From positions 1-33,510 of the forward strand of contig JAJZFS010000107.1 of the NCBI GenBank assembly GCA_021805245.1: 33,510 bases of DNA. Direction: 5' to 3'. Of the stretch, positions 5,581-24,543 are shown one piece after another. The notes beneath the pieces are model-generated. The model made no database searches and was not told where the DNA came from. It worked only from the letters and a program-made list of their open reading frames with translations. A program made the translations under genes and the position numbers. This DNA is from Pseudomonadota bacterium. Its GTDB lineage: Bacteria > Pseudomonadota > Alphaproteobacteria > Micavibrionales > UBA2020. How positions within the stretch are numbered: the stretch's first letter is position 1; every line of letters starts with the position of its first letter.

Positions 5581-5581
5581 A

Positions 5582-7815: not shown

Positions 7816-8357
7816 TGGTAAAATGGCTGCAAATTTTGACGGTTTTTGTTTGCCTTTGCGGCGCTGAGGCCCTTGCCGCGCTGCCGCCCCCGCATAAGCC
7901 CGTCACTGCGCCGCCGGCGACGGCGCACAAGCCTGTTGTCCCGAAGGGAGCTGCCGCTACCGCTGCTCCGGCAGCAGAGCCGGATATCAACAAGATATTT
8001 CGCGGATCCTTCTTCTTTTCGCCGCTGGAAATCGCAGATATCGAACAGGCTTTGGAAGGGCATGTCCGCAAGTCGACGGGGACGGATACGACGGACGCGC
8101 CCATTCCCCAGCACCGCGTCATCCAGCTGTCGGGCGTTTACTACCGTTCTCCGGGTGACTGGGTGGTCTGGATGAACGGCCAGAAGGTGACGCCGGCCAA
8201 CCTCTTGCCGCAGATCGTTTCTATCCATGTCAGCCCGTCTTCGCGGGTGCATCTTCAATGGTACGACATCGGCCTGAACCAGGTTCTTGCGCTGACGTTG
8301 CGCCCGAACCAGACATACGACATCACGTCGGGCGTGTTATTACCGGGGGCGCATTGA
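7815..8357 (+). CDS. secreted MshK/PilP-like pilus assembly protein
   Basis: This protein of about 180 residues has a cleavable signal peptide (hydrophobic core LQILTVFVCLCG, likely cut after ALA near residue 22). A Pro/Ala-rich linker runs to about residue 60, then a compact C-terminal domain. That domain reads VIQLSGVYYRSPGDWVVWMNG, followed by a region ending in LTLRPNQ. This resembles the MshK/GspC-type homology region that docks the platform to the secretin. I prefer the ATG at 7815, which overlaps the preceding TGA and has GGGGG five to six bases upstream. A GTG at 7812 is also possible and adds one residue. Confidence 0.6.
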   Translation: MVKWLQILTVFVCLCGAEALAALPPPHKPVTAPPATAHKPVVPKGAAATAAPAAEPDINKIFRGSFFFSPLEIADIEQALEGHVRKSTGTDTTDAPIPQHRVIQLSGVYYRSPGDWVVWMNGQKVTPANLLPQIVSIHVSPSSRVHLQWYDIGLNQVLALTLRPNQTYDITSGVLLPGAH

Positions 8358-8358
8358 T

Positions 8359-9141: not shown

Positions 9142-10427
9142 AAATGTCTGGGGTAAAGCGCGTTGAGGGCAAGTCGGCTATGTTGCGGCAAGCCGGATTT
9201 GCTTTGTTGCTTGCGGCCTGCGCACCGGGTTATGCCCTGGCGCAGACGGCAGCGACATCGACGACATCGGCACCGGCTCTGCCGATGATGGCGACGCCGG
9301 GTTTGCCGGCAAGCACGGCCCAGCCGCCATCTTCCGCAACGCTGGTACAGCCTTCAAATGCGGCGCAGGCATCGCCATCGGTACCTCCGGTGCAAGTGGC
9401 ACCGCCCACAAATGCGGCATCGGCGGTTTCCGGATCACCGGACCAGAGCGCTTCGTTTTCGGGGACGGCATCTTCCGATACTTCAATGTCCGGCACGGAT
9501 GCCTCTTCGGGAGGTGCGGTTTCGGGAACGGTGCCATCGATACCGGCGTCTGCCGAACCTTCTTCTGCCCAGCCGTCCATAGAGAGCGTTGCGGCGGCCA
9601 TCGCGCCCGCCGCCGAGACGGGCACAGCCTCCGTCCAGCCGTCTCCTGCCGAGTTGGCCATTGTTCAAAATGCGTCCAAGCTGAAAGCGGGCCATGCATC
9701 CAAGCCGTCCGAAGCCAGCATCCGCGCGATGCGTGCGAAAACACGTGCGGCGACGGATAAAGGCTTGCGCGTCACCGACATTCTGGCGACGCCGGCACAG
9801 GTCCGCCCGTTGCCGCCGCAATACCTGGTCGTGCACAGAGATTACAGTGCCGGGAGCGACTATGAATCGCGTCTTGCGTCCGCGCGTCTGGCCCTGTCCG
9901 AGGGGCACTATGCGGCGGCGCTGGGGTTGTTCGACGACCTCTTTCACCGCAATACGAGCGACCTGCGTGTCCTGATGGGCCGTGCCGTCGCACTGCAAAG
10001 ACTGGGCGAGACGGGCGCAGCCCTCGATGCCTACAAACACATCCTGAAACTCGATCCGGAGAGCGTGTCGGCGATGACCAATACCCTCGGCCTGATCAAG
10101 GGCGAGAACACGCAGCCGGCGATCGACGCGATGCAGAAATTGCGCCGCCTCTATCCGGCCAACGTGGCGGTGACGGCGCAGTTGGGGATGCTCTATGGCG
10201 TCTCCGGCGATTACAGCAACGCGCTGAAGTATCTCGACATGGCGGATGCCCTGAAGCCGGATGACGGCGTCATTCTTTATAACCGCGCCGTTGCGTATGA
10301 CCATATTGGCAAAACATCCCGCGCCGCGGAGATGTACCGCCGCATTTTGGATCTCGCGGCAGAAGGCGATCTGAACGCCTCCCTGCCGCTTGATGATATA
10401 AGGCAGCGTTTGTCGACGCTCCGGTAA
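9138..10427 (+). CDS. exported TPR protein of the pilus locus (MshN/TadD-like)
   Basis: This 429-residue protein has a signal-like N-terminus with hydrophobic core AGFALLLAACAPGYALA, cut near AQT. About 130 residues of low complexity rich in Ala, Ser, Pro and Thr follow, consistent with an extended periplasmic linker. The C-terminal half (about 235-425) holds tandem tetratricopeptide repeats, for example LALSEGHYAAALGLFDDLF, ALQRLGETGAALDAYKHIL and LYGVSGDYSNALKYLDMADAL. In MSHA loci a TPR protein (MshN) occupies a similar place and is thought to help assembly or secretin placement. The start overlaps the ABC ATPase stop by four bases. An internal ATG two codons on is also possible. Confidence 0.75.
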   Translation: MKMSGVKRVEGKSAMLRQAGFALLLAACAPGYALAQTAATSTTSAPALPMMATPGLPASTAQPPSSATLVQPSNAAQASPSVPPVQVAPPTNAASAVSGSPDQSASFSGTASSDTSMSGTDASSGGAVSGTVPSIPASAEPSSAQPSIESVAAAIAPAAETGTASVQPSPAELAIVQNASKLKAGHASKPSEASIRAMRAKTRAATDKGLRVTDILATPAQVRPLPPQYLVVHRDYSAGSDYESRLASARLALSEGHYAAALGLFDDLFHRNTSDLRVLMGRAVALQRLGETGAALDAYKHILKLDPESVSAMTNTLGLIKGENTQPAIDAMQKLRRLYPANVAVTAQLGMLYGVSGDYSNALKYLDMADALKPDDGVILYNRAVAYDHIGKTSRAAEMYRRILDLAAEGDLNASLPLDDIRQRLSTLR

Positions 10428-10434
10428 AGCCGGC

Positions 10435-11220
10435 ATGTTTTTGATCAAAGCGGTGATTGTGGCAGGGCTGGGGCTGATCTTCGGCAGCTTCGCCACGGCC
10501 TTGTCCTATCGCCTGCCGCGCGATATATCCATGGTGACGCGCGTGCATTCGCAGTGTCCGTCCTGCCGCCACAATCTTGGCCTTCCGGATCTTATACCGC
10601 TGTTTTCATGGCTTTTCCTCAAGGGGAAATGCCGTCACTGCGGCGCGCGCATCGGCGTGCGCTATCCTTTGATCGAGCTGGCGACGCTGGGCTTGTGCAT
10701 GCTCTTTTTCTCCGTTTATGGCCTGACGCCGGAAACAGTCGCCGTGTTCGCGCTGGCGCCCGTGCTGGTGAGCATCACCGACATCGACTTCGGGCACCAG
10801 ATCATTCCCGACAGCCTGAACATGGCCATCTTTCTCATCGGCGTTGCGGCGTTTGCCGTCAATGCGCTGCTGGCCGCGCATCCGGCCTCTTTTTTCAGCG
10901 CGCACATCGTGCCGCCGCTGGCCGGCGCGGCGCTTTATGGCGGCTTCGCATGGCTGTTGCGGTGGGGCGCGTTTGCCGTCCTGAAACGTGAGGCGCTGGG
11001 GCTGGGCGACGTCAAGTTTTTTGCTGCGGCCGGATTCTGGCTGGGGTTGAACGTGATGGCGGCGTCGCTGCTGATGGTCATTTCCGGGGGGGCAGGCGTT
11101 GTTTTGGCGTTCTTGTGGAAAAAACGCACAGGAGAGGCCGAAGTGCCTTTCGGCCCTTCGCTGATCGTCGCTTTTATTGTGGTGTTGTGCCTTTTCCCGC
11201 CGCATTTCATATCTCTTTGA
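10435..11220 (+). CDS. pilD: prepilin peptidase / N-methyltransferase (A24 family)
   Basis: This 261-residue membrane enzyme cleaves the leader of prepilins at Gly|Phe or Gly|Tyr and methylates the new N-terminus. The zinc-ribbon cysteines are Cys41, Cys44, Cys66 and Cys69. The catalytic aspartates are seen in ITDIDFGHQIIPD (about Asp118) and GLGDVKF (about Asp196). The N-terminal GLIFGSFATALSYRLP helix is typical of the full bifunctional form, and several further membrane helices follow. It presumably processes the four pilins encoded at 18287-24543. It starts eight bases after the TPR gene stop and lacks a strong ribosome site, so it probably depends on upstream translation. Confidence 0.95.
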   Translation: MFLIKAVIVAGLGLIFGSFATALSYRLPRDISMVTRVHSQCPSCRHNLGLPDLIPLFSWLFLKGKCRHCGARIGVRYPLIELATLGLCMLFFSVYGLTPETVAVFALAPVLVSITDIDFGHQIIPDSLNMAIFLIGVAAFAVNALLAAHPASFFSAHIVPPLAGAALYGGFAWLLRWGAFAVLKREALGLGDVKFFAAAGFWLGLNVMAASLLMVISGGAGVVLAFLWKKRTGEAEVPFGPSLIVAFIVVLCLFPPHFISL

Positions 11221-11246
11221 CATCTGCGTGCGAATAAACCGTTATC

Positions 11247-11261
11247 TTAACCTTATGTTAA
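11247..11261 (+). promoter_or_regulatory. CtrA-type box (TTAA-N7-TTAA) upstream of pilT
   Basis: TTAA at 11247-11250 and 11258-11261 are exactly seven bases apart, the full consensus for the alphaproteobacterial regulator CtrA. The site lies 80 bases before pilT in the longest gap of the pilus block. A possible promoter overlaps it: TTAACC (11247-11252), 17 bases, TACCAT (11270-11275). CtrA binding is inferred from the motif alone. Confidence 0.5.
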
Positions 11262-11340
11262 TATATGTTTACCATTCTTTCAGTGTATTTGCGTACTCTT
11301 GAAGGTGGATATACGGGGATGATACAACAGGGGGCAAGCC

Positions 11341-12522
11341 GTGGATATTACAGAGTTTCTCAAGTTTACGCTCGACAACAAGGCATCGGATTTGCACTTG
11401 AGCGGAGGCAATAATCCGAAAGTGCGTATTGACGGCGAATTGCGCCAGGTCAAGCCGGACATCCTGCAGGGCGACGATATTCGCGGCATGCTGTATCAGG
11501 TTATGAACGAGGACCAGCGCGCGGAGTACGAGCGTGATTTCGAAATCGACTTTGCCATCGCCTTCGGCCCCGAGGCGCGTTTCCGTGTCAACGCCTTCAC
11601 CAACCGGCAAGGTTCGGCTGCCGTCTTCCGCGTCATTCCGACGAAAATCCCGACCATGGAGCAGCTGTCGTTGCCGCCGGTCATCCGCAGGCTCGCGGAA
11701 CTTGAAAAAGGGCTGGTGCTTGTCACCGGTCCGACCGGTAGCGGCAAATCGACGACGCTGGCGTCGATGATCAATCATATCAATGAAAACGAAGCCGTGC
11801 ACATCCTGACCGTCGAGGACCCGGTCGAATTTTTCCATCCGTCGAAAAGAGCGCTGGTCAACCACCGCGAAGTCGGCAATGACACCAAATCATTCGCCCG
11901 CGCGCTCAAAAGCGCGCTGCGTGAAGACCCTGACGTCATTCTGGTCGGCGAAATGCGGGACTATGAAACGATCGCTCTCGCACTGACTGCCGCTGAAACG
12001 GGGCACCTTGTCTTCGGAACCCTGCACTCGAACAACGCCGCCAAAACCATCGACCGTATCATCGACGTTTTCCCTGCGGCGGAAAAAGAAATGGTGCGCG
12101 CGATGCTCGCCAGTTCCATTCAGGGCGTCGTCGCGCAGGCGCTGCTGCCGAAAGCGGGGGGCGGACGCGTTGCGTCCCATGAAATCATGGTCGGCACCAA
12201 TGCCGTGCGCAACCTGATTCGCGAAAATCAGCTGGCGCAGGTCTATTCAATGATCCAGACCGGCGCGCGCTACGGCATGCAGACGATGGAAGATTCCGTC
12301 CATGATCTTCAGGAGCACGGGTTTATCACGGCAGAGACCGCGCACGATGCACTGAAAACGGGTGCTGAAGCGGAATCCGCCGACGATACGCCAAAAGCGC
12401 CGCCGCCGCCGCCACAGCCGATGATGCGCAAGCCTGCGCCCGCCGCCCAGAGAGCGCCCGCGTCGGCCGCCGCAGCAGCGCCTGCCGCACCCTTGCCGGG
12501 CGAGGAAGGATATTCATTTTGA
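11341..12522 (+). CDS. pilT: type IV pilus retraction ATPase PilT
   Basis: This 393-residue hexameric ATPase powers pilus depolymerisation. The N-terminal domain starts ITEFLKFTLDNKASDLHL. Walker A GPTGSGKST is at residues 130-138, the Asp box reads VEDPVEFFH, Walker B VILVGEMRD, and the His box GTLHSNNAAKTIDRI. The PilT-specific motif is present as AVRNLIRE, followed by QTGARYGMQTMEDS. The start is a GTG with AGGGG upstream; an in-frame TGA a few codons before it rules out a longer form. Unlike standard PilT, which ends at about 345 residues, this one adds about 45 residues rich in Pro and Ala. Its stop overlaps the pilU start. Confidence 0.95.
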   Translation: MDITEFLKFTLDNKASDLHLSGGNNPKVRIDGELRQVKPDILQGDDIRGMLYQVMNEDQRAEYERDFEIDFAIAFGPEARFRVNAFTNRQGSAAVFRVIPTKIPTMEQLSLPPVIRRLAELEKGLVLVTGPTGSGKSTTLASMINHINENEAVHILTVEDPVEFFHPSKRALVNHREVGNDTKSFARALKSALREDPDVILVGEMRDYETIALALTAAETGHLVFGTLHSNNAAKTIDRIIDVFPAAEKEMVRAMLASSIQGVVAQALLPKAGGGRVASHEIMVGTNAVRNLIRENQLAQVYSMIQTGARYGMQTMEDSVHDLQEHGFITAETAHDALKTGAEAESADDTPKAPPPPPQPMMRKPAPAAQRAPASAAAAAPAAPLPGEEGYSF

Positions 12523-13649
12523 GCAGTGCTGCGATATACAACTACCTAAAGGAAATGGTGCAGCGGGAGGCGTCGGACATCTATCTCACGGTTGGCGTGC
12601 CGCCGACCCTGCGCATTGACAACATTCTCCATCCGATCGAGGGGGATGCGCTGAAGGAAGAAGATGTCCAGTCTATCATGATGGAGATTCTGACGCCGCG
12701 CCAGCGCCTCGAGTTCGATACCAGCATGGAACTCAACATGGCGCTCGATCTTGGCGCGGAAGGACGTTTCCGCATCAACATTCTGCGCCAGCGCCAGAAA
12801 CCGGCGCTCGTCATCCGGCGCATCACCAGCAAGATCCCCAACTTCGAGCAGTTGCATTTGCCCAAGCTCATGGAAAAGCTGGCGCTTGAAAGACGCGGGC
12901 TGATCCTGATCTGCGGCGTGACGTCGTCGGGGAAATCGACTTTGGCCAGCGCACTGATGGACTACCGCAACTCCATGATGGGTGGCCACATCATTACTAT
13001 CGAGGATCCCGTCGAGTTCTATCACGAACACAAAAAAGCCATTATCACGCAGCGCGAAGTGGGGATCGACACGGCCTCCTACAGCGTCGCGCTGAAAAAC
13101 GCCCTGCGGCAAAAACCCGACGTAATCCTCGTCGGCGAAATCCGTTATCAGGACGTCATGATCCAGGCGATCGCGGCGGCCGAAACGGGCCATACCTGCT
13201 ATGCGACGCTGCACACCACCAATGCATCGCAGGCGATCGAGCGCATTATCGGGTTCTTCCCCGAAGAACGTCATCAGCAGATACGCATCGCGCTGAGCAT
13301 GAACCTCAGGGCTATCATCGCGCTCAGGCTTGTGCCGGGAGCGAAGGGCGGTATGGTGATGGTTCCGGAAATCCTGCTCAACGAAGCTTTGGTCAAAGAG
13401 CACATCATGAAGGGCGAGACGAGCAAGATTCACGATGTTATGGCCAACAACAATACGACCGGCATGGTCACGTTCGACCAGTCTCTCCTGAGCCTTTATA
13501 AAAAAGGGCTGATTACTGCACAAACGGCATTATCTGAATCCGACTACTCTGCGGATATGAAAATAAAAATCCAACAGCACCAGATGATGGATCAGGCAGC
13601 AATGTCCTCGTCGTCTCTTGGCATTGACACATCCAGATTGTCTCTGTAA
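12519..13649 (+). CDS. pilU: PilU-like accessory retraction ATPase
   Basis: This 376-residue PilT paralogue has Walker A GVTSSGKST (133-141), Asp box IEDPVEFYH, Walker B VILVGEIRY and His box ATLHTTNASQAIERI. The C-terminal part reads IMKGETSKIHDVMANN and TFDQSLLSLYKKG, as in PilU, and lacks the AIRNLIRE motif of PilT. PilU works with PilT as a helper retraction motor. The start is a TTG overlapping the pilT stop, eight bases after AGGAAGGA; it gives the complete N-terminal helix AIYNYLKEMVQREASDIYL. The next in-frame ATG (12555) would remove part of that helix. Confidence 0.9.
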   Translation: MSSAAIYNYLKEMVQREASDIYLTVGVPPTLRIDNILHPIEGDALKEEDVQSIMMEILTPRQRLEFDTSMELNMALDLGAEGRFRINILRQRQKPALVIRRITSKIPNFEQLHLPKLMEKLALERRGLILICGVTSSGKSTLASALMDYRNSMMGGHIITIEDPVEFYHEHKKAIITQREVGIDTASYSVALKNALRQKPDVILVGEIRYQDVMIQAIAAAETGHTCYATLHTTNASQAIERIIGFFPEERHQQIRIALSMNLRAIIALRLVPGAKGGMVMVPEILLNEALVKEHIMKGETSKIHDVMANNNTTGMVTFDQSLLSLYKKGLITAQTALSESDYSADMKIKIQQHQMMDQAAMSSSSLGIDTSRLSL

Positions 13650-13708
13650 AAATAATCCGAAGCGGGTTATCGTTAATCGTATTTTTTCAAAGAGATGGGA
13701 TCGTTCAG

Positions 13709-15547
13709 GTGTCAAAATCGCGTTACTCCTTCCGCGTCAGCTACATAGCTCTCGGCGTTATGCTTTCCACAGTGTCTCTGGGGGGCTGCACTCTCGCCAA
13801 AAACCAGCTGACATTCGACCGCAGCGCGAACAAGAGCATGCAATATTATCGCGATGGTTTGTCGCCCCAGCGTCAGCCTCAAACCGCAAAAGAAGCGCCG
13901 TTGCCGCCGTTCCAGTCTTTCGTTGCCACGCCGAGCGACCTGCAGCTGCCGTCGCCGCTGGTGACTGTTTCCGTCGACCAGACGGTGTCGTTGCGCGACC
14001 TGATGTTCGAACTGGCCCAGCAGGCCGGCGTTGACCTCGAAATGGATCCCGATATTCAGGGAACGATTATTTTTACCGCCAAAGACCGTCCGTTCAACGA
14101 GGTCGTCGACCGTATCTGCAACATGTCGGGGCTGCGCTATACGTTCAAGAATAACGTGTTGCGCATCCAGATCGATCGCCCTTATATCAAGTACTATAAA
14201 GTCGATTACATGAGCCTTTCGCGCACAAGTAAGTCTACTATCAATACAGGGATTTCCAGTGGCAGCGCCGGTGGCGCCGGCGGCGGAGGCGGTCCAAGCG
14301 CCAGTTCGGGATCCAGCTTCAATGTTGACGTCAAAGACGACGCGGATTTCTGGAAGGAACTTAAAGCCGGCATGGATCAGGTTTTGAAGGCGTCTGACAA
14401 CTATGCGCCTCTGGCAACCATGCAGAATCCCGTGGCGTCGGTGGTCCCGCCGCCTGCACCGCCTGCGCTCCCCGGCAATGGCGGCACGCCAGCGCCAGCG
14501 AAACCGTCGAATATGCCTCCGTCGCTGAATGTTTCGGTTTCCAGCGGATCGGCGCCGCAGAAGAATCCGCCGGCGACGTTCTCCATCAGTAAGGATACGG
14601 GGATTATCAGCGTCTATGCCACGCAAAGACAGCAGAAGATGGTGCAGAATTATCTGAACGACTACCTCCATCAGGCGCTTGCGCAGGTCTTGATTCAAGC
14701 CAAGGTTCTTGAGGTTTCGTTGAATGACCAATTCTCCACGGGCATCGACTGGGGGCAATTGGGTGCAAACCTGACGCGTCTCGTTCAGTCCGCCCAGATC
14801 AAGACGCCTGCGCCGCCGTTTTCCCCTGTCGATACGACGGGCAGTGCCTTTGCGCTGAACCTTGATCTTGGCCATGGGTTCAAACCGGTTATCAACGCCT
14901 TGAGCGAGTTCGGTACGGTGCGTTCTCTGGCCAGTCCGCGCATTACGGTGATGAATAACCAGTCCGCCATCGTCAACGTGGCCACGAACCTGATTTACTT
15001 CCAGATTAAGGTGACCACGACCCCGTCTACGGCGGTGGGGGTTCCGCCGACGATTACTTATAACTCCACGCAACAGTCGACGCCTGAAGGTGTTCTGATG
15101 AACGTGACGCCGACGGCGGATGTCAGTACCGGCGAGATTATGCTGGCGGTGCGTCCGACCGTGACCAAGAAAATCGGCGACGCTTCAGATCCTTCCATCG
15201 CTCTCAGTATTTTGAGTTCTGGTCTGCCTTTGTCGGACGTGCCCAACAGCCCGATACCGGTCATGGACGTGCAGCAGCTTGATTCCGTCATCAAAATGCA
15301 GTCCGGCCAGACGATGGTGATGGGCGGCTTGATGCAGAATTCCAATCAGGTCAGTCAGGTGGGTGTGCCTGTTTTGGGCGATGTACCGTTTTTGGGGAGC
15401 CTGTTCCACAACCACGGCGACAACATCAACAAAAGTGAACTGATTATCTTCCTGCAGGCGACAATTGTGCCGGGGTCCAATGTCCAACCCATGGACCGGC
15501 GCGTTTACAAGGAGTTCGGCCACGATACGCGCCCCTTCAATATGTAA
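13709..15547 (+). CDS. outer-membrane secretin, lipoprotein MshL/PilN(R64)/BfpB type
   Basis: This 612-residue secretin forms the outer-membrane pore for the pilus. It starts with a lipoprotein signal ending in the lipobox LGGC, so Cys27 should be lipidated. A secretin N-domain covers about residues 85-160 (VDQTVSLRDLMFELAQQAGV and FTAKDRPFNEVVDRI). A Gly/Ser-rich stretch (about 177-205) and a Pro-rich stretch (about 245-275) link to the secretin domain, whose end shows GQTMVMGGLMQN, VPVLGDVPFLGSLF and KSELIIFLQATIV. A lipid-anchored secretin of this size fits MshL, BfpB and R64 PilN better than PilQ, and no AMIN domain is seen. The start is GTG with GAGATGGGA upstream. Confidence 0.9.
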   Translation: MSKSRYSFRVSYIALGVMLSTVSLGGCTLAKNQLTFDRSANKSMQYYRDGLSPQRQPQTAKEAPLPPFQSFVATPSDLQLPSPLVTVSVDQTVSLRDLMFELAQQAGVDLEMDPDIQGTIIFTAKDRPFNEVVDRICNMSGLRYTFKNNVLRIQIDRPYIKYYKVDYMSLSRTSKSTINTGISSGSAGGAGGGGGPSASSGSSFNVDVKDDADFWKELKAGMDQVLKASDNYAPLATMQNPVASVVPPPAPPALPGNGGTPAPAKPSNMPPSLNVSVSSGSAPQKNPPATFSISKDTGIISVYATQRQQKMVQNYLNDYLHQALAQVLIQAKVLEVSLNDQFSTGIDWGQLGANLTRLVQSAQIKTPAPPFSPVDTTGSAFALNLDLGHGFKPVINALSEFGTVRSLASPRITVMNNQSAIVNVATNLIYFQIKVTTTPSTAVGVPPTITYNSTQQSTPEGVLMNVTPTADVSTGEIMLAVRPTVTKKIGDASDPSIALSILSSGLPLSDVPNSPIPVMDVQQLDSVIKMQSGQTMVMGGLMQNSNQVSQVGVPVLGDVPFLGSLFHNHGDNINKSELIIFLQATIVPGSNVQPMDRRVYKEFGHDTRPFNM

Positions 15548-15566: not shown

Positions 15567-16388
15567 ATGATCTCCAAACCATTGGTTAGATATGTTCTGA
15601 CTGCCGCGATGCGGGACAGGCTGATGGTAACGCTTGCGCTCATGATCCTGATGGCGGCCGCGCTTGCGGTCTTCATGGGCTCGGCGAGCGTGACGGAAGG
15701 CGCGAGTTTTGCGCTGGTTTTCGGCTCCGGCAGCCTGCGTTTTCTCGGCGTCATCGGCCTCGTGCTGTTTTGCTGCTTTTACATCCGCCGCGCTTTTGAA
15801 AACAAGGAGGTCGAGTTTTTGCTTTCGCGGCCAATCTCCCGGTTGTCCTTCCTCGTCAGCCATGCGCTGGCTTTTTCGTTCCTGGCTTTTCTGATCGCCG
15901 CCATGATCACCGTCGTGGTCGGTGTCATCGGCCGTCCCGATATGGCGGGGCTGCTGATCTGGGGCGCAAGTCTTGCCGCCGAATTCGCGATGATGGCGGT
16001 GGCGGCGTTGTTTTTTTCCATGGTGCTGTCGAGCGCGGCGGGTTCTGCCCTTGCAACGCTCGGGCTTTATGCCTTGTCGCGCACGACGGGCACGCTGCTC
16101 GGCGTCCTCAGTCAGGGGCCGGCGAATTGGTTTTACGCCATTATCGGCAGCATGATGAAGCTGATTTCAATGGTGACGCCGCGTCTTGACATGATGGGGC
16201 AGACGACATGGCTGGTCTATGGCGTGCAGGGATCGGCCGGTTTGCAGTTTATGCCGCATGCGGGCGCTTATGCGCATTGGATGATGGTGCACATGGGCGT
16301 GACCGGTTTTATTGTGGTGCAAGGTGGTATTTTTGTCGCGCTGTTGCTGGCGGCGTCGGCTTTTGACTTTACGCGACGGCAATTTTAA
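15567..16388 (+). CDS. ABC-2 type permease in the pilus locus (PilI-like)
   Basis: This 273-residue integral membrane protein has about six hydrophobic helices and the layout of ABC-2 permeases. Recognisable pieces are YIRRAFENKEVEFLLSRPISR, a common permease segment after the second helix, and helices such as LVSHALAFSFLAFLIAAM. It is the likely partner of the ABC ATPase at 8359-9141. An AAAAGG ribosome site lies eight bases before the ATG. Its stop overlaps the next start (TAATG). The substrate is unknown; in Myxococcus the PilH/PilI pair is needed for pilus assembly rather than nutrient transport. Confidence 0.75.
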   Translation: MISKPLVRYVLTAAMRDRLMVTLALMILMAAALAVFMGSASVTEGASFALVFGSGSLRFLGVIGLVLFCCFYIRRAFENKEVEFLLSRPISRLSFLVSHALAFSFLAFLIAAMITVVVGVIGRPDMAGLLIWGASLAAEFAMMAVAALFFSMVLSSAAGSALATLGLYALSRTTGTLLGVLSQGPANWFYAIIGSMMKLISMVTPRLDMMGQTTWLVYGVQGSAGLQFMPHAGAYAHWMMVHMGVTGFIVVQGGIFVALLLAASAFDFTRRQF

Positions 16389-17140
16389 TGGTTGCCCGGG
16401 GGGTGAAAACGCAGAACAGGCTGAGCCGGATAAAACTCGTTATTACGGCCATTCTTTGCGTGAACTTTCTCTTCTGGTGCGCCAGTCAGAACGTATACGA
16501 ACGCTGGTCGGGTGTGCCGCCGGTGCCGGACAGGACAGGCGCCGTCATGATGACGCTGGGCGATCCGGAATTTTCGTACCGTATTCTCGCCCTGTCCTTG
16601 CAAAATCTCGGTAACCTTGGCGTGAATATGGCGCCGCTAAAGGATTATAATTATCACGAGCTGGGGGAGTGGTTTTTGCTGCTGAACAGCCTTGATCCGG
16701 TCTCCGATCACGTGCCGACGCTGGCCGCCTATTATTTCGGCGCGACGCGCATACCGGCGGATGTCGCAGTGGTTGTCCGTTATCTCGCCGCCGTAGGTCA
16801 GGAGCCGTTCGGCACCAAATGGCGCTGGCTTGTGCAGGCGGTCTATCTTGCGCAGCACCGTCTATATAACGAAAATCTCGCCTTGCATTTGGCCAAAACG
16901 CTCGCGCATATGCCGCAAAGTGTTGCAATGCCGGCGTGGGCGCGGCAGATGCCCGCGTTTGTGCTGGAAAAGAAGGGGGACAAGGAGGCGGCGCGCACGC
17001 TCATGATCGACATGCTCCGCACGCAGAAAAATCTTTCGCCCCAGGACCTCTCCAATATGGAGTTTTTCCTGATCCATCAGGTCGGCATGTCGCCGCAGGC
17101 CGTGCTGCGCATCCTGAAAGAGCGCGGGGGGCATCACTAG
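16388..17140 (+). CDS. membrane-anchored helical protein of unknown function, linked to the ABC permease
   Basis: I do not recognise the family. The 250-residue protein has a basic N-terminus, one membrane helix (about residues 15-33, LVITAILCVNFLFWCAS) and a soluble part that should face the periplasm. The soluble part is almost wholly helical and has a TPR-like rhythm, for example LAQHRLYNENLALHLAKTLAHM and LEKKGDKEAARTLMIDML. Its start codon overlaps the permease stop, which strongly suggests joint function. By position it could be the third member of a PilGHI-like ABC system; that is inference from context, not similarity. Confidence 0.5.
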   Translation: MVARGVKTQNRLSRIKLVITAILCVNFLFWCASQNVYERWSGVPPVPDRTGAVMMTLGDPEFSYRILALSLQNLGNLGVNMAPLKDYNYHELGEWFLLLNSLDPVSDHVPTLAAYYFGATRIPADVAVVVRYLAAVGQEPFGTKWRWLVQAVYLAQHRLYNENLALHLAKTLAHMPQSVAMPAWARQMPAFVLEKKGDKEAARTLMIDMLRTQKNLSPQDLSNMEFFLIHQVGMSPQAVLRILKERGGHH

Positions 17141-17143
17141 GTC

Positions 17144-18271
17144 ATGCCTTCCATTTTTGAAAATACTTTTAGCGTCATAGAATGGCTGGCTGTCACCGGC
17201 TTCGCCCAATGCGTGCTGATTATCGTGCATATCGTGTTCCGCGTCAGGGACTGGAAACAGGCTTCTTTGGCGCTGGCCTATTTCTTTGTGCTGGGGCTGG
17301 CCTTCGCACTGCAGTTTTCCACGCGCTTGCACGATTACGATCAGGCCATACAACTGGTCTTGTGGTTTACGCGCGTTTTGGGGCCGCTTTTGTGCTATCT
17401 GCTGGTTCTGCAAATCGCGAAAGGCGCGGGCCTGCCGGAACGGCGGCAATTTCTGTTTTTGACGCTGGCGCCGCTGTCGCTGCTGGCGGGATTCGTTATT
17501 GATAAAACGGCCGGTGTTTGCACGGCGGGAGACGCTTTATGCCCGAGCCTGTTTTTGTGGCTGCAATGGCTGGGCGCGATTTCCGGTGGTTTTGCCATGC
17601 TGGCGCTGTGGGGCCATCAAAACCTTTTTACGACCTTACGGCTGGCCAGGAGCGGCATGGAGCGCTACTGGCTGGTGATGGTGCTGATCGTTGCCAATGC
17701 GGGCGCCGTCGGCATCATGTTTTTGCGCTCTGTGAACGGTCTGGACCAGCGGACGGCGGATACGCTTCTTGTCGTGTTGGGACTGTCTTTCGTCTATCTC
17801 GCGAGCACGATGCTATTCCGCGTCTTTCCATCGCCGGTTCAGTTGAGCGATAAGCCGACCCGCTTCACCAGACAAACGATGACGGCAGAAGAAAAAGAGC
17901 TCGCCGCCAAAGTCAAAAAGCTGATGGAGGTGGACAAACTCTATCATGAGCAGGCCTTCAGCCGCGCGGATCTCGCGCGCGAGCTGCAGGTTTCTGAGAA
18001 TACGCTTTCAAGGGTGATTAATGTGGCCTTCGGCAAGAGTGTCCCTAGGCTGCTCAACGAGTTCCGCGTGGGCGATGCGAAAAGGATGCTGATGAGCCCG
18101 GAGATCCCCATACAAGTGGTGGCCTCCGAAGTGGGGTTCAACTCGCTGGCGTCGTTCAACCGCGCGTTCCGCGACGTCACCGGCCTCACGCCGACCCAGT
18201 ACCGGCAGGCGCATATGACCGAAGGCAATATGGCGCAAAAAGGCGGCACGTCTGATTCAGCTAAAGGTTAG
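17144..18271 (+). CDS. AraC-family regulator with seven-helix membrane domain
   Basis: This 375-residue protein has about seven hydrophobic helices in residues 5-235, for example SVIEWLAVTGFAQCVLIIVH, YWLVMVLIVANAGAVGIMFL and TLLVVLGLSFVYLASTML. A linker and a C-terminal AraC DNA-binding domain (about 270-365) follow. The first helix-turn-helix is FSRADLARELQVSENTLSRVI. The second is IPIQVVASEVGFNSLASFNRAF, ending in the family signature GLTPTQYRQ. Such proteins are thought to sense a membrane or external signal and bind DNA while membrane-bound. It starts three bases after the preceding stop and converges on the minor pilin operon, with 15 bases between the stops. The pilin promoters are plausible targets, by neighbourhood only. 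Confidence 0.85.
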   Translation: MPSIFENTFSVIEWLAVTGFAQCVLIIVHIVFRVRDWKQASLALAYFFVLGLAFALQFSTRLHDYDQAIQLVLWFTRVLGPLLCYLLVLQIAKGAGLPERRQFLFLTLAPLSLLAGFVIDKTAGVCTAGDALCPSLFLWLQWLGAISGGFAMLALWGHQNLFTTLRLARSGMERYWLVMVLIVANAGAVGIMFLRSVNGLDQRTADTLLVVLGLSFVYLASTMLFRVFPSPVQLSDKPTRFTRQTMTAEEKELAAKVKKLMEVDKLYHEQAFSRADLARELQVSENTLSRVINVAFGKSVPRLLNEFRVGDAKRMLMSPEIPIQVVASEVGFNSLASFNRAFRDVTGLTPTQYRQAHMTEGNMAQKGGTSDSAKG

Positions 18272-18286
18272 GCATTCCTCTCCTGT

Positions 18287-20677
18287 CTACTGGCAGATGC
18301 AGGTGGAGTAAATGTAGTAGCCGTTCACGCCGTTCGGTGCAGAGCATGGAGACACCGCGCCCTGTGTCGAGCAGGTGCTGCCGAGCGAGTTGGACAGAGC
18401 AGAACCGCTCGTCCCGCTCGGCGTTTCGCCGTTACTCAGGCTCCATTGGTAGACCAGCGAACTGCAGGTGTTGTTGGTTGTAACCCAGGGGCCCCAGGCG
18501 TCAGCCGTGCAGTCGAACGTCTTCTGCTGATACTGCGTGCCTTGTTCGGGCGCAGGGCAGCCGATCTGCTGATATTGCTTGATGGGCTGGCAGGTGCAGG
18601 TGTTGCTGGTTGTCGTCCAGGCGCTCCAGGTGCCCGAGTTGACCGATTGACAGGTCATATTGGACGTTTGCGTCACTGTGCCGGAATAACCGGCGCCGAG
18701 ACCGTATGCCTGACAGGTCATCGTCTGCGTTCTCGTCGCGGTCGGGTCGCAGACGCAGTCCGTCGATTGGGTTGACGTCCAAAACGGTCCCTGCGCCGCC
18801 GCGGTGGGATTAGCGCCATCGCAGGTGAACTTTTTGGTTGTTGTGAAATTGCCGGTATAGCCCTGCGGGCATGTATTATTGTAGTTCCACGTTTGCGGGT
18901 TGCAGGTGCACGAGCCGGTGTTTGAATAAGTGTAAGTCGTGTTTGTCGGGTTGCAGGTCGTGGTTTGTGTCACGCCGACGTTTCCGCTCCAGCAGCTGCC
19001 GCAAGGCCACCAGCCGTGATACTGGTTGCAGCTTTCGTTATAGTTGTTCGTGGCCTGATTGCACTGTGTGCAGCTGCCTGTCTGCGGTGTGTTGCTCCAG
19101 CTCGGGCCGCTCCACGAACCGCCGCATGTCCAGACTTCCGAGGCGGCAAATCCGGAGCTTACCGTCTCCGATTGCCCCATAGGCAAAGAGGGAACCTGGA
19201 CCCAGGTCCAGCAGAAATTCGTCCAGGTCGTCGGGCATGACAGCTGGGACGAGCATTCAATCTGGCCGCTATTGCTTATCCCGATCATGTGTTCGTTGGC
19301 GGGGCAGGTCATGTTAATCTGGTTCTGGTCCACGCAACTCATGGTGCCGTTTGAAAAGCCGGTGGCGACCTTGTTCGCGCCGTTGCAATTCATGCTCATT
19401 TTGGCTTGAACGCAATTGCTGCCCGGCTGGCCGGGAAGGGGCCCCAGCCCGCAGAGTTCGTTCGCCATCAGGTCTCCCGTACCCGGGGTCGAGGGCTCCA
19501 CCAGCACGGCCTTGTCCCAAGGATGGGGGCTGCCCACTTGCATGGCCGCGTCCGGTGTTCCCACGCCGGTCGGAAGGTCGTTGCGGTCTATGCCGACTTT
19601 CCCCTGGCCCGCGTTGTCGCTCGCGTTGACCAGATCGCTAATGGCGGTGCCGGCGCTGCCGGCCACCTGCCACAACGGCGTTTTATCCGAGTTGTAGTAC
19701 ATGATCAGATCATCGAAATGATTCGGGCCGGTGACCGGGCTGTATAGAGCCGAGAAGTAAACGGCGTTCGACCACTCGTTGACGCCGGTTTGGCAGTTGG
19801 GCGCATCGAGCGTCGAAGGGGTGGAGTTCGCCACCAGCATGGGCGCGCAAGGATATACGGGGTGGGTCAGATCGCCGTTTTCCGTGAAGGCGCCTTTCCT
19901 GTCGGGGCCGCTGCTGATGAGGATGTATTGCACCGAGCCGCCGCCCAGGCTGTCTGCGGGCGCGGTGACCAGGGACGCGTAGCCTGACGGGTCTGCCGTC
20001 GTGGGTGCAACGGGAGCATTGGCATTGACGACGTCGATGCCGCCGAGATCCTTGTTGTAAAGCCCTTTGACCGCCAGATTTTCCGTCACGGCGTATTGAA
20101 ATTCGTCGCCGTAGCCGTCCAGCGTCTCGTATTCAGGAATGCCGAGCGTCCGGAAAGGTACTTCGCCGCGGCGCACGCGGCCGTTCCAGTAAGGGGTTGA
20201 TTGCGGCCCCGGTGCGATGGTCGGCGGCCAGGGAGGGCTTTGTGCCCAGAGAGGCGGCCAGACATCGTTCCACTTGGCGGGAGCAACGCCGCTCGGATTC
20301 CAATTCCGGTTGCTCACCTGAACGCAATAGTTGTGATCTGCCGCGCCGCCGCCGTGGTTGCACTGTCCGATGGGAACGGTGTGGTCGGTGCAGTCGCCGG
20401 CGACGCCGTAGTCCGCCGCATCGGAGCGCGGCACAAACGGCGCCGGACAGGGGTAGTGGCCCGTCTGCACGAGGTAGTTGTTGATGGCCGCGGCGAGAAG
20501 GCTCGCGTTATTCAGCGTCGTGTTCTCTTTCTGGGCTTTCAGGTACTGGGTGCCGACGGCGCCGATGCTGCTCAGCATGACGCCCATGATGAGAACGGCG
20601 ACGGCGAATTCAACCAGCGTATAGCCCCTGATCAGGCTGCTGCGGGAGGGGGCGTTTTTCATGGCGGTGGTGCGCAT
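18287..20677 (-). CDS. large minor pilin / putative tip adhesin with cysteine-rich C-terminal repeats
   Basis: This 796-residue protein has a class III prepilin signal, RG|YTLVEFAVAVLIMG, with Glu at mature position 5. The central part shares landmarks with the two upstream paralogues: YPCPAP, VPFRTLGIP, DGYGDEFQYAV, SSGPDRKGA and FDDLIMYY. A weak VGID/GVGT segment follows, then two two-cysteine modules (CNGANKVATGFSNGTMSC and CPANEHMIGISNSGQIEC, about residues 430-475). Beyond these it uniquely carries about 260 residues of Cys/Trp/Thr/Asn-rich repeats. The ATG at 20677 has GGAG seven to eight bases upstream. ATG 20662 makes an ATGA overlap with the preceding stop and is an alternative. It is the last gene of a three-gene minus-strand operon. 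The size suggests a pilus-tip protein; adhesion is inferred. Confidence 0.8.
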   Translation of the reverse strand: MRTTAMKNAPSRSSLIRGYTLVEFAVAVLIMGVMLSSIGAVGTQYLKAQKENTTLNNASLLAAAINNYLVQTGHYPCPAPFVPRSDAADYGVAGDCTDHTVPIGQCNHGGGAADHNYCVQVSNRNWNPSGVAPAKWNDVWPPLWAQSPPWPPTIAPGPQSTPYWNGRVRRGEVPFRTLGIPEYETLDGYGDEFQYAVTENLAVKGLYNKDLGGIDVVNANAPVAPTTADPSGYASLVTAPADSLGGGSVQYILISSGPDRKGAFTENGDLTHPVYPCAPMLVANSTPSTLDAPNCQTGVNEWSNAVYFSALYSPVTGPNHFDDLIMYYNSDKTPLWQVAGSAGTAISDLVNASDNAGQGKVGIDRNDLPTGVGTPDAAMQVGSPHPWDKAVLVEPSTPGTGDLMANELCGLGPLPGQPGSNCVQAKMSMNCNGANKVATGFSNGTMSCVDQNQINMTCPANEHMIGISNSGQIECSSQLSCPTTWTNFCWTWVQVPSLPMGQSETVSSGFAASEVWTCGGSWSGPSWSNTPQTGSCTQCNQATNNYNESCNQYHGWWPCGSCWSGNVGVTQTTTCNPTNTTYTYSNTGSCTCNPQTWNYNNTCPQGYTGNFTTTKKFTCDGANPTAAAQGPFWTSTQSTDCVCDPTATRTQTMTCQAYGLGAGYSGTVTQTSNMTCQSVNSGTWSAWTTTSNTCTCQPIKQYQQIGCPAPEQGTQYQQKTFDCTADAWGPWVTTNNTCSSLVYQWSLSNGETPSGTSGSALSNSLGSTCSTQGAVSPCSAPNGVNGYYIYSTCICQ
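18463..19075 (-). repeat. four tandem Cys/Trp-rich protein repeats in the large minor pilin
   Basis: Translated on the minus strand, four units of about 46-54 residues begin at CTQCNQ, CTCNPQ, CVCDPT and CTCQPI (near 19072, 18915, 18765 and 18603). The last three share a C-x-C-x-P start, a mid-unit Cys 6-12 residues on, an aromatic and Thr-rich strand, another Cys, and a W-x(2)-W or FW turn before the next unit. The first is more divergent. They look disulfide-bonded and extracellular, somewhat like thrombospondin type 1 repeats, but I cannot name the family. Confidence 0.6.
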
Positions 20678-22002
20678 TGTATAACTCCATTTGAAATTCC
20701 CACTACATACGTGCCGGGGCTGCAAGTCTTCGGCGTGATTTGGGAGGTATTGACCTGATTGGCGCACTGCGGCGTGGAACCCGCGATGCCGGTCATAATG
20801 CCGCCATTGCAATCTTCTCCCGGCGTAATCAGGGCGAGGTGAAAGCAGTTATTGGTGTTCTCGTCACAGTATATGTCGGATTGGGCGTTCGTGGCCCTGA
20901 TATTGCCGACGACGTCGAGCGTCGCGGCCGGCGCATTGGTGCCGATGCCGACCTTGCCGCCCGTTTTGTTCCCTATCCTGTGCAGGTTGGCGGAATAGGC
21001 GACCCATGCGTCCTGGTCGATATTGATGGATGTCAGTATGAATGCGTCATCGTAGAAGAGGGGGCCCTGGACCGTTGAATAGATGTCCTGAGTGCCGCCT
21101 GCCGCACCGGTCGCGCTGAAGAGGAAAGTGGAATCATTGTTGCAGTTTTCATTGTCGCGGCCCGTCGAGCTTGCCGACGGAAAACCCGGACCCATGTCAA
21201 TCGGCACGCCCATTTGGCAGGGAACGGGCACGGTTCCGTTGTAGTCCCATGCGCCGCGGCCGTTGGGGCCTGCCGACAGGACGACGAACATGAAAGAATT
21301 GGGAACCTGAGGCGCGCTGGTGTCCAGATTTTTATTGATCATCGGCGCGATTTTGTTTTGTGCGCTGTCAAAGTATTCGACGTTGATGGCGCCGCCGACG
21401 TAATAGTAATCGAACGTATTATGATCGGTGCTGTAATAGGACACCGCATAAGTCATGCGGTTGCCCCAGCCGTCCAGCGCCTGATTCATGGCAATTCCCA
21501 AGGTGACATAGGGGACCGTGCCGATCAGCACGGGGTCGTACTGGCCGGTCTGGCTTTGCGGGCCGGTGCCGCCTACGGCGGTCGGGTTGTACTGCGTCGC
21601 CCGTGCGCCCGCGACGACGCACAAGCCGTTTGCTCCGGCGGGGCAGTATGGCCATGTGACGTTGGGCGGATAATCGGTGCCCGGCGGGGGCGTGAGGCCT
21701 GATGTCCAGCCGCTGAGGTTGATCGGGCTGGGCGAGAGATCGCATACCGAAACGCCCGCGTTCGGCGATGTCGGCGGCAGGCCGGGTTCGGCCGGACAAG
21801 GGAACGCGCCGTAGGTGAAAACATAGCGCGACAGGGCGTTTTGGATGGCTATTTCTCTTGAAGCCGTTGTGTTGTTTTGCTGCTCTCTCTCCCACTGCGT
21901 ATACTCGTGGATAAGGGAGCCGGCGAAGAGGCCGAAGAGCGCCACGGCGATCATAATCTCGACGAGAGAAAATCCGCGTGATGTTTTTCCGGTATTCGTC
22001 AT
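20659..22002 (-). CDS. minor pilin with tail-fibre-like VGIGT motif
   Basis: This 447-residue protein has a prepilin leader RG|FSLVEIMIAVALFG with Glu at mature position 5. The core contains FPCPAEPG, TVPYVTLGI, DGWGNRMTYAV, LSAGPNGRGA and FYDDAFIL, shared with its two neighbours. Near residues 360-385 it carries GKVGIGTNAPAATLDVVGNI, the motif seen in many phage tail fibres and some bacterial surface fibres just before a distal domain. It ends with two short two-cysteine modules, the last being CSPGTYVVGISNGVIQC. The ATG at 22002 follows AAGGAG and gives an MTNTGKTSRGF leader; the open frame extends further upstream but without pilin features. It lies 17 bases after the first pilin stop and overlaps the third gene. 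Confidence 0.82.
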   Translation of the reverse strand: MTNTGKTSRGFSLVEIMIAVALFGLFAGSLIHEYTQWEREQQNNTTASREIAIQNALSRYVFTYGAFPCPAEPGLPPTSPNAGVSVCDLSPSPINLSGWTSGLTPPPGTDYPPNVTWPYCPAGANGLCVVAGARATQYNPTAVGGTGPQSQTGQYDPVLIGTVPYVTLGIAMNQALDGWGNRMTYAVSYYSTDHNTFDYYYVGGAINVEYFDSAQNKIAPMINKNLDTSAPQVPNSFMFVVLSAGPNGRGAWDYNGTVPVPCQMGVPIDMGPGFPSASSTGRDNENCNNDSTFLFSATGAAGGTQDIYSTVQGPLFYDDAFILTSINIDQDAWVAYSANLHRIGNKTGGKVGIGTNAPAATLDVVGNIRATNAQSDIYCDENTNNCFHLALITPGEDCNGGIMTGIAGSTPQCANQVNTSQITPKTCSPGTYVVGISNGVIQCAPPP

Positions 22003-22019
22003 GCGCCTTTTTCCACTCC

Positions 22020-23252
22020 TTAATTGCATATGACCTTCCCCGCTGAGTCGATGCCGTAGGCCATTCCCGACGGGCAGGAAGAGTTGGCGTTGGCCTGCGG
22101 AACGTCTATCGGCGTGCCGCATTGAATTTGCCCGTATTGCATGCCGTTGATGACGTTCATCTTGCCTGGCGGCGCCGCGCCGCAAACGGCGCTGACGTTG
22201 TTGTTGCTGGCGTTCGTGCCGCTTGCCGGGCCGCCCAGAATATTGGGGGCCCAGGAGTGGGTGCAGCTGCCGGCATGGCATACGGCGTTGAGATAAATAC
22301 TCCCGTTCGTATACAAGGTGCCGTTGACCTCCAATTCCTGCGTTGGATCGGCGTTTCCGGTGCCGACGCCGACATAGCCGGGGTTTTTGTTATAGACGTC
22401 GTTGCTGTTCGGCGCGGTGAAGGACCAGAGCTGTGTCAGCGTGAACGAGGAATATATCATGATATCGTCGAAATACTTGGGACTGCCCTGAACGATGTTA
22501 TAAAGGCCGTCGGCAAAGTTCCACTGGTGGTTACAGTTGGCAGAGTCGACCTCGCCTGCATGGCAGGGCACGCCCATGACGCCGGCGGACGTATAAGCGC
22601 CCATGTGGTTTTGACCGGCGGACCAGATGATGTAGTTGATGGTGTCGGGCGGCTCTACAAGGTTTGTGCCCGTCTCTGACTGGACATTGAGTACGCCATC
22701 GCCCTGGCCGTAGCTGCTGTTATAGATGTCCCCTTCTGAAACGGCGTAATTGATCTGGTATCCCCAGGGGTCCACCGTACTTCCCACGGTGGCTATCTGG
22801 GAACCCGATGCGAGGGCTGCGTCGATTGTCTTGTAAGGAATGCCGCCGAAATAGACCGGATCAGTCGCGGCGCCGGCGGTCTGGTTGGCCGGTGTAAGGC
22901 GCGCGCCGGCTTCTTTGCAGATGCCGTTATAACACCCGCCAACGGGCATCATTTTCAAGTGCAGGCAGGCAACACCCTCGTTCACCCCGCAGACCCCGCA
23001 TTGGCATCCGGCATTCGGACTGCCGATCGGCTGGGTCGGATCCGAGGGAAGCGGCAGGCGGCCCATCGAAGAGCCATAGTTGCTCAAGGCGTCGTTCAGG
23101 TTCGTTATTTGCCCGTAGGTTTTGTGATACAGGTACGTGGAGTAATACGAGAAGTAGCTGAGCGAGAGGGCTGAAATCACCATCCCCGCCAGCACGATGA
23201 CGACAGACAACTCGACCAGCGAGAATCCGCGCTCTCTTTTATTCTTCCTCAT
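22020..23252 (-). CDS. minor pilin, first gene of the minus-strand pilin operon
   Basis: This 410-residue protein starts with leader MRKNKRERG and the mature sequence FSLVELSVVIVLAGM. The core contains LPLPSDP, GIPYKTID, DPWGYQINYAV, WSAGQNHMGA and FDDIMIYSS, matching the two downstream paralogues. A VGVGTGNADPTQELEVNGTL segment is the same tail-fibre-type motif as in the second gene. Two two-cysteine modules close the protein; the last is CPSGMAYGIDSAGKVIC. An additional cysteine cluster near residues 82-110 (CQCGVCGVN) is specific to this copy. ATG 23252 with GGGAAG upstream is preferred over GTG 23267. It faces the large control region shared with the pilin at 23815. Confidence 0.82.
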   Translation of the reverse strand: MRKNKRERGFSLVELSVVIVLAGMVISALSLSYFSYYSTYLYHKTYGQITNLNDALSNYGSSMGRLPLPSDPTQPIGSPNAGCQCGVCGVNEGVACLHLKMMPVGGCYNGICKEAGARLTPANQTAGAATDPVYFGGIPYKTIDAALASGSQIATVGSTVDPWGYQINYAVSEGDIYNSSYGQGDGVLNVQSETGTNLVEPPDTINYIIWSAGQNHMGAYTSAGVMGVPCHAGEVDSANCNHQWNFADGLYNIVQGSPKYFDDIMIYSSFTLTQLWSFTAPNSNDVYNKNPGYVGVGTGNADPTQELEVNGTLYTNGSIYLNAVCHAGSCTHSWAPNILGGPASGTNASNNNVSAVCGAAPPGKMNVINGMQYGQIQCGTPIDVPQANANSSCPSGMAYGIDSAGKVICN

Positions 23253-23814: not shown

Positions 23815-24543
23815 ATGAAGAAGTTATCAAAGCTACAGAAACAAAAAGGCTTCACGCTGGTGGAGTTGGCGATCGTTCTGGTTATTATCGGTCTTCTCAT
23901 CGGCGGTATTCTTAAGGGGCAACAGCTGATCGACAACGCCCGCGTCACGGCGCAAATGACGCAGTTCCAAGGCCTGCAGGCGGCGGAAACGAGCTTCCAG
24001 GATGCTTACGCGGGGCTTCCGGGCGACTTGCCCTCCCCGAACACCCGCGTGCCAAGCACGCCTCCAGGCTGCAATGCGGTGGGTGATGGCAACGGGGTGA
24101 TCGGAACCCCCGCTACTGCTGCGAACATCTATACCATCGGCGGCGTCGGGAACGAGAATATTTGTTTCTTCGCCGAATTGTCAGGCGCCGGCTATCTGGC
24201 GGGGGTTTCTAAGCCGAACGCGAGTCCTGTGATTTTCGGCCAGACCGTGCCGCAAGCCAAACTGGGGGCGGGGTTGATCGTCTCCGATGTCCAGGACGCG
24301 CCGAGCTGGTCCGGCCTTTATGCCGCGGATGTCGAAACCACGGGTGATCCGGGAGCGGTTGCCGGTGTGAACTCGATGACGCCGGGCCAGGCGGGTCAGA
24401 TCGACCGGAAAATGGACGATGGCAACCCGACCACCGGCAGCATTTTGGGGCTTGGTTTTGGTACCAACTGCACTAACGGCGGCACCGGCTATATCGAAAG
24501 TTCTACCACGAACGATTGCGACGTCGGTTTCAAACTCAACTAA
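23815..24543 (+). CDS. pilA: type IV pilin, probable major pilin
   Basis: This 242-residue prepilin has a basic leader ending KQKG and mature sequence FTLVELAIVLVIIGLLIGG, with Glu5 and a hydrophobic stem helix continuing through KGQQLIDNARVTAQM. The globular part contains LPGDLPSP, two cysteine pairs and a cysteine near the C-terminus (NDCDVGFKLN), consistent with a disulfide-bounded D-loop. It lacks the tail-fibre motif and cysteine modules of the three minor pilins and is the shortest pilin here, so I take it as the main subunit; expression level is unknown. AAGGGAG and AGGA lie upstream of the ATG. A strong terminator follows directly, so the gene is probably monocistronic. Confidence 0.85.
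   Translation: MKKLSKLQKQKGFTLVELAIVLVIIGLLIGGILKGQQLIDNARVTAQMTQFQGLQAAETSFQDAYAGLPGDLPSPNTRVPSTPPGCNAVGDGNGVIGTPATAANIYTIGGVGNENICFFAELSGAGYLAGVSKPNASPVIFGQTVPQAKLGAGLIVSDVQDAPSWSGLYAADVETTGDPGAVAGVNSMTPGQAGQIDRKMDDGNPTTGSILGLGFGTNCTNGGTGYIESSTTNDCDVGFKLN

Follow-up and report, generated by a model that had tools for sequence, protein, structure and literature searches.

A conserved trio of modular minor pilins in the Micavibrio order and its possible role at the tip of a type IV pilus

Assembly of type IV filaments begins with a minor-pilin complex at the tip (PMC10191384), and modular pilins are a described class, a survey of which already includes pilin-S74 architectures (PMC8179133). 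In Myxococcus, three modular minor pilins join in heterotrimers that serve as exchangeable tips of the Kil pili and are needed for predation (PMC12075869). The published structures of Mosaic Adhesive Trimer (MAT) fibres, adhesins of the predator Bdellovibrio, are also trimers, in this case homotrimers, and have a capping-loop consensus (PMC10769870) which corresponds to the VG[IV][GN]xxxPxxxLxV seen in this study. The three proteins considered here, A, B and C, are encoded in a 33,510-nucleotide stretch of DNA (contig JAJZFS010000107.1 of assembly GCA_021805245.1, Micavibrionales; hereafter the window). The role that fits the trio best is that of a pilus-tip complex and, with a probability of roughly 0.6, we propose that they are minor pilins that prime a type IV pilus and make up its adhesive tip, most likely in the form of an A-B-C heterotrimer with intertwined MAT-like strands. 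New features are the architecture of the trio, its conservation across the order, its relationship to MAT fibres and the cysteine rod of C, and a search of an open-access library found no paper on minor pilins in Micavibrio.

An operon of three paralogous prepilins

22020..23252, minus strand: A, a modular minor pilin of 410 residues; first gene of the operon, with its ATG at 23252; orthogroup A in the tree.
20659..22002, minus strand: B, a modular minor pilin of 447 residues; separated from A by a 17-bp gap and overlapping the start of C.
18287..20677, minus strand: C, a modular minor pilin of 796 residues from the ATG at 20677; the largest of the trio, its start overlapping the end of B.

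The three genes form one minus-strand operon of true paralogues, in which the overlap between B and C amounts to 19 bases; the true start of B is at 22002, and not at the first ATG of its open frame. Pairwise BLASTP of the full proteins relates A to B (E 4e-29), B to C (6e-20) and A to C (3e-13). Similarity reaches far past the leader helix, since family profiles of the post-pilin parts alone, compared with hhalign, match at 99.8% for A-B (E 8e-29), 99.5% for A-C (6e-23) and 99.3% for B-C (9e-21). The maximum in 60 column-shuffled control runs was 6.5%, and the matches lie far above these controls, so that even the weak form of the fibre motif in C is homologous.

The landmarks listed in the original prediction, which had been made from the DNA alone, were all found in A, B and C, and in the order proposed. 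They comprise, for A, B and C, respectively, the prepilin leader (GFSLVE, GFSLVE and GYTLVE), P[CL]P (RLPLP, FPCPA and YPCPA), P[YF]xT (IPYKT, VPYVT and VPFRT), DxWG (DPWGYQINYAV, DGWGNRMTYAV and DGYGDEFQYAV), SxG...GA (SAGQNHMGA, SAGPNGRGA and SSGPDRKGA) and FDD (YFDD, FYDD and HFDD). The fibre element reads VGVGTGNADPTQELEV-G in A and VGIGTNAPAATLDV-G in B, and the weak form noticed in C, VGID...GVGTPDAAMQV-G, is divergent yet homologous by family profile. The description of three like proteins holds as far as paralogy is concerned, but C is no plain third copy, given that it bears a long extra cysteine rod.

Pfam model PF07963 (N_methyl) places A and B above its cut-off and C below, and TIGR02532 recovered all three above its cut-off in the genome search, with 18.4 bits for the leader of C; in the protein scans this leader fell under both the Pfam and the NCBIfam cut-offs. 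When the full-length proteins were compared with Pfam, NCBIfam and PHROGs only the leader was matched, in line with the claim that no described family covers the trio, and no full-length match to a known minor-pilin family was found. With similarity between the three reaching far past the helix as well, neither of the two outcomes that would have refuted the original prediction was obtained. Curated models of the HIJK minor pilins (GspH-K, FimU/PilV/PilW/PilX) produced leader matches under cut-off only, for instance 11.6 against 52.2 bits for TIGR02523 on C, and PF04917 (Bac_shufflon, PilV) had no match in the trio at E up to 10.

The first domain is predicted to adopt a pilin fold. In the AlphaFold2 model of B, with a mean predicted local distance difference test score (pLDDT) of 78.9, the best structural match of this domain is the type IVb pilin of enterotoxigenic Escherichia coli (Z 5.8 over 158 residues), followed by TcpA (4.6) and GspG (4.5), and in the model of C the best match is again the enterotoxigenic E. 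coli type IVb pilin (Z 5.7). These Z scores are moderate, yet they come from two independent models and pilins occupy the top rows in both. Foldseek searches with the models of B and C gave no match at E < 0.001; its matches ranked under pilins for B, or all those besides pilin for C, look like matches to a common arrangement and were set aside. A single-sequence search of the PDB with C returned nothing.

Fibre element, cysteine modules and the rod of C

22320..22373, minus strand: MAT-type capping-loop element of A, VGVGTGNADPTQELEVNG (residues 294-311), from alignments and a PDB profile match to MAT fibres.
20905..20952, minus strand: capping-loop element of B, VGIGTNAPAATLDVVG (residues 351-366), from alignments and a PDB profile match.
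19532..19597, minus strand: divergent capping-loop element of C, VGIDRNDLPTGVGTPDAAMQVG (residues 361-382), from hhalign against the A and B families (99.5% and 99.3%).
22119..22184, minus strand: two-cysteine module 1 of A (C357-C378), from alignments.
22026..22076, minus strand: two-cysteine module 2 of A (C393-C409), from alignments.
20764..20811, minus strand: two-cysteine module 1 of B (C398-C413), a predicted beta-hairpin, from alignment and the AlphaFold2 model.
20674..20724, minus strand: two-cysteine module 2 of B (C427-C443), a predicted beta-hairpin, from alignment and the AlphaFold2 model.
19334..19387, minus strand: two-cysteine module 1 of C (C431-C448), from alignment and hhalign.
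19253..19306, minus strand: two-cysteine module 2 of C (C458-C475), from alignment and hhalign.
18290..19243, minus strand: cysteine- and tryptophan-rich rod of C (residues 479-796, 318 residues), from alignment and model.

A search of the PDB with a profile built from the regions that follow the pilin domain in 39 A/B orthologues matched Bdellovibrio Bd2133 over three repeats (E 2.5e-13) and no fewer than three other MAT chains of distinct sequence, with E values of 5e-7 to 0.0015 for the other Bdellovibrio fibres, and it also gave a weak match to myelin regulatory factor. The distal part had been predicted to be phage-like; it is indeed fibre-like, but the Bdellovibrio MAT fibres are its closest relatives, and the phage tail-fibre profiles of PHROGs are weaker, the best of them (phrog_9942, E 4.7e-5) matching 18 of the 39 members and being confined to a short motif. 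As judged from sequence, VGIGT...LDV-G represents the capping-loop unit of MAT fibres and is not specifically a phage feature. Among 61 A/B orthologues, 40 have the full capping motif, where 0.015 would be expected from shuffled sequences. The capping element usually lies 16-22 residues past a conserved tryptophan in A/B and 18-25 in C. Modular minor pilins carry an extra C-terminal module that is not pilus-specific, and in the trio the MAT-type element is such a module. That the three proteins are minor pilins whose distal part resembles a fibre is in this way supported; the initial observation is confirmed as a whole, and the interpretation built on it is partly supported.

Two cysteine modules are present in each protein, as predicted, but the count of exactly six copies did not hold: a third short cysteine pair lies ahead of the two modules in each protein (C379 and C386, 'CDENTNNC', in B) and C has many more cysteines. 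The C-terminal cysteines are strongly conserved. A and B terminate with the two modules, whereas in C they are followed by the rod, which the original prediction did not mention. It contains 26 cysteines and is built of repeats of about 48 residues joined by CxC, with a conserved CxC[EQ] end. Full-length C orthologues range from 592 to 1039 residues, the number of repeats and the length of the rod varying while the end is kept; one short row (487 residues) is without most of the rod. The final 150 residues of the C model have a pLDDT of 77-90. A fibronectin-type-I-like fold was considered for the rod and the match (Z 4.2-4.5) is too weak for naming a fold; homology of the rod to the cysteine modules of A/B was rejected (hhalign 0.2-0.5%). 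In another genome (G041), a 633-residue prepilin (L142:5583-7484, plus strand) has tandem CxxGxxLxGIxxGxPxC modules, which suggests from its sequence that the two-cysteine module may be a reusable repeat.

Pilus locus, distribution and possible role

4366..15547, plus strand: type IV pilus machinery, with a platform protein (4366) and ABC and TPR proteins, from family scans.
Within 4366..15547, plus strand: prepilin peptidase (10435) and two PilT/PilU ATPases (11341 and 12519).
13709-15547, plus strand: MshL-like secretin.
15567..18271, plus strand: two membrane proteins (15567 and 16388) and an AraC-type regulator (17144), kept beside the trio and the secretin in relatives.
23815..24543, plus strand: probable major pilin of 242 residues with a prepilin leader, divergent from the trio and adjoining it in several relatives.

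The trio is adjoined by an MSHA-like pilus locus and the major pilin, and in several genera synteny extends over the trio, the major pilin, the AraC-type gene, the two membrane proteins and the MshL-like secretin. The DxWG...Y motif and the GspG-like pilin fold (Z 4.5 to a GspG, with TIGR01710 under cut-off) would also suit pseudopilins of a secretion system that exports substrates instead of building an adhesive pilus. Two retraction ATPases of the PilT/PilU family and an MshL-like secretin, however, fit a retractile pilus, and the GspG and GspH equivalog cut-offs were not reached, which makes pseudopilins highly improbable. Three consecutive open reading frames of the pilus locus (525, 219 and 181 residues, window positions 5582-8357) had no match in Pfam and occupy the position expected for inner-membrane assembly proteins. 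A PilB-type extension ATPase was not recognised among the open reading frames of the window that were scanned.

Two different leader profiles detected four prepilins in this 97%-complete genome, namely the major pilin and the trio. Since filaments need a priming complex and only these four were found, the trio provides the only candidates found for it. PilY1 was not found in 55 relatives; a first control set gave no matches with its model, and when the control was repeated in a wider set the model matched 18 of 60 genomes of the phylum. As priming of assembly is a general task of minor pilins, and no other candidates were found here, the trio could be an ordinary HIJK-type initiation complex that does not act as an adhesin, in which the fibre and cysteine modules only stabilise the tip or gate the secretin. 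Nevertheless, the rod of C varies in length and repeat number while its end is kept, as expected for a surface adhesin, and related pilins swap their distal modules for other domains (S74, vWA-like), so that a purely priming function appears decidedly unlikely.

The original prediction had suggested looking for the trio in other genomes, and it is kept across the Micavibrio order, where members of the A/B profile occur in 125 of 142 genomes and in 48 of 54 genera. In a tree of 98 rows, A, B and C fall into three distinct and ancient groups, all of which include orthologues from other families (orthogroup C: 32 rows, support 100/94), and the three orthogroups are kept together across families f1, f3 and f5. 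Nearly all complete loci consist of one A, one B and one C, the exception being L047 with a duplicated C (L047:7412-11764, plus strand, genome G049), in which the tandem copies, of 723 and 718 residues, are nearly identical. In genome G016 the B gene is present as two overlapping frames (L042:10321-11527, plus strand), by frameshift or assembly error. Outside the order, about 285 genomes of the class were sampled with the fibre-plus-module profile and only two of them had a match, in both cases in a long open reading frame where mainly the fibre motif was matched. Pilin variants have multiplied greatly in genome G027 of family f5, which has about 30 prepilin leaders, mostly in open reading frames of about 250 residues located on many different contigs.

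Eight prepilins in all were detected in Micavibrio aeruginosavorus ARL-13, and the ARL-13 genome paper likewise reported eight. Besides the canonical trio (L139:6641-11066, plus strand), ARL-13 has a second trio (G421:C1:897728-900119, minus strand) that matches one in the sister genome G052. Each of its three chains has one capping element and, in G052, the set combines capping elements and fibre repeats without cysteine modules. The second trio forms a clade of its own in both trees with 95-100% support, although long branches urge caution, and as it is separate in both, sets of three seem to have originated on two occasions. The ARL-13 loci concerned are at 730.7-735.1 kb and 897.7-900.2 kb; the pili-related genes GMV0902/0903, highly expressed in published RNA-seq data, would be close to the second trio if locus tags are spaced at about one per kb. 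The G052 set was also considered as a decayed canonical trio, which is ruled out, as ARL-13 has both sets and the trees separate them.

Genome G003, of the same genus, encodes three giant prepilins of about 1000-1260 residues (L066:900-7703 and L140:1322-4357, both on the minus strand). The L066 pair joins a pilin domain of the same family to NTAVG-type trimer-adhesin repeats and a C-terminal S74 endosialidase chaperone (SDLRLKKD), with Pfam E values of 1.9e-12 and 1.2e-11 in a Pfam run on this pair; the C-terminus of the L140 prepilin is similar to those of the pair. Such pilin-S74 fusions provide a separate line of evidence for pilins of this family bearing trimer-fibre modules. Further related prepilin-like proteins (L067:4887-6518, L071:5719-7497, L104:5944-7827 and L105:5926-7965) carry other domains, which are vWA-like, PA14/GLEYA-like (below cut-off), WD40-like and a concanavalin-type lectin.

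The S74 trimer chaperone that some G003 pilins carry for themselves suits a homotrimer, the minor pilins CofB and TcpB are tip homotrimers, and so are the MAT structures described. Each paralogue of the trio might therefore form its own homotrimeric adhesin, decorating different pili or serving as an alternative tip. Alternative tips would be expected to come and go singly, however, and instead one A, one B and one C, of very different lengths, are found together in nearly all complete loci, and no minor-pilin set besides the trio was found in this genome; we consider homotrimers rather unlikely. By analogy, the chains of the trio may perhaps form a heterotrimer, in view of the trimeric nature of MAT and S74 fibres and of three different chains with a similarly spaced capping element being kept together.

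For the pilus tip that we propose, we hypothesize that the prepilin peptidase encoded in the window would cleave each of A, B and C, whose N-terminal helix and pilin domain would insert at the filament head. Past the pilin domains, each chain would contribute one MAT-type beta strand with its capping loop, and these would wind around one another, most likely in an A-B-C heterotrimer, into a short and rigid fibre, followed by the disulphide-stapled hairpin modules. C alone would extend as a disulphide-rich rod, its conserved end being the likely receptor-binding part, and the two PilT-family ATPases could, by retracting the pilus, draw the cell towards its target, which by analogy would be prey cells or some other surface. 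The loss of Glu5 in 4 of 16 B-like orthologues of family f3, the only orthologues without it, is a weak hint from sequence that B may be the outermost subunit.

Several points weigh against this proposal. Glu5 is present in A, B and C of this genome, while the classical top subunit is without it, and the capping element of C is divergent. In the single-chain models the fibre region has a low pLDDT (43-76 in B and 33-54 in C), which would be expected if the strands need partners and in itself proves nothing. Paralogous homotrimers on separate pili, or three proteins acting in turn, would fit the observed sequences equally well. Moreover, short leader models may miss odd prepilins, other genomes of the order have further prepilins, so that the trio is not everywhere the sole set, and the organism of the window is not known as a predator. 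The more specific idea that each of the three paralogous pilins gives one MAT/phage-fibre-like strand to a single heterotrimeric beta-fibre, with the rod of C recognising prey or partner bacteria, is more tentative, at somewhat less than even odds. If it is true, Micavibrio-like bacteria would have, throughout the order, an attachment device for which alternative trios serve as exchangeable tips.

Comparison with described systems

The trio offers order-wide candidates for how Micavibrio and many uncultured relatives recognise and hold other bacteria. It would represent a three-gene pilus tip made from a fibre unit that Bdellovibrio uses in surface adhesins, in a lineage outside the classical Bdellovibrio; NCBI places Micavibrio in Bdellovibrionota, and the genome collection used here puts it in this alphaproteobacterial order. 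It also suggests that trimer fibres of phage and MAT type can be mounted on pili, possibly as heterotrimers too.

The Bdellovibrio MAT fibres (Bd2133, Bd2439 and Bd3182; PMC10769870) share with the trio the unit V-G-I-[GN]-[ST]-x-x-P-x3-L-x-V-x-G, a predator lineage and a modular tip. They start, however, with a signal peptide and a beta-rich N-terminal domain of about 130 residues, where the trio has a prepilin leader and a pilin domain, and the trio is therefore related to MAT by module and is not a member of the MAT family. It further differs in having one capping unit per chain and three distinct chains per operon, and in ending in cysteine modules and a cysteine rod in place of the known MAT tips.

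Among modular pilins, PilB and PilC of Streptococcus sanguinis (PMC8179133) likewise have a functional module grafted on a pilin stem, but their modules are vWA and lectin domains, whereas the trio consists of three paralogues with one common distal architecture. CofB and TcpB, as described in the same survey (PMC8179133), resemble it in their type IVb-like pilin stem followed by beta-repeat and distal domains and, on the reading proposed here, in a trimer at the tip, yet they are homotrimers of one gene; neither was among the solved-structure matches to the trio by sequence. The PilV shufflon adhesin of IncI plasmids (PF04917) is also a minor pilin with a variable C-terminal recognition domain, although it depends on a single gene with DNA inversion and has no trio.

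By analogy, the closest functional counterpart would be the Kil tips of Myxococcus (KilL/KilM/KilN; PMC12075869), here compared by description. The Kil pilus is of the Tad type and has separate Flp adapters, in contrast to the MSHA-like secretin and PilT ATPases of the trio locus, and descriptions of its subunits mention no shared MAT element and cysteine modules. Nevertheless, both systems comprise three-gene sets of minor pilins with extra C-terminal domains, in which one protein is much larger than the others, and several such paralogous sets can share a genome, as they do in ARL-13; for Kil, an AlphaFold heterotrimer places the three subunits at the end of the pilus.

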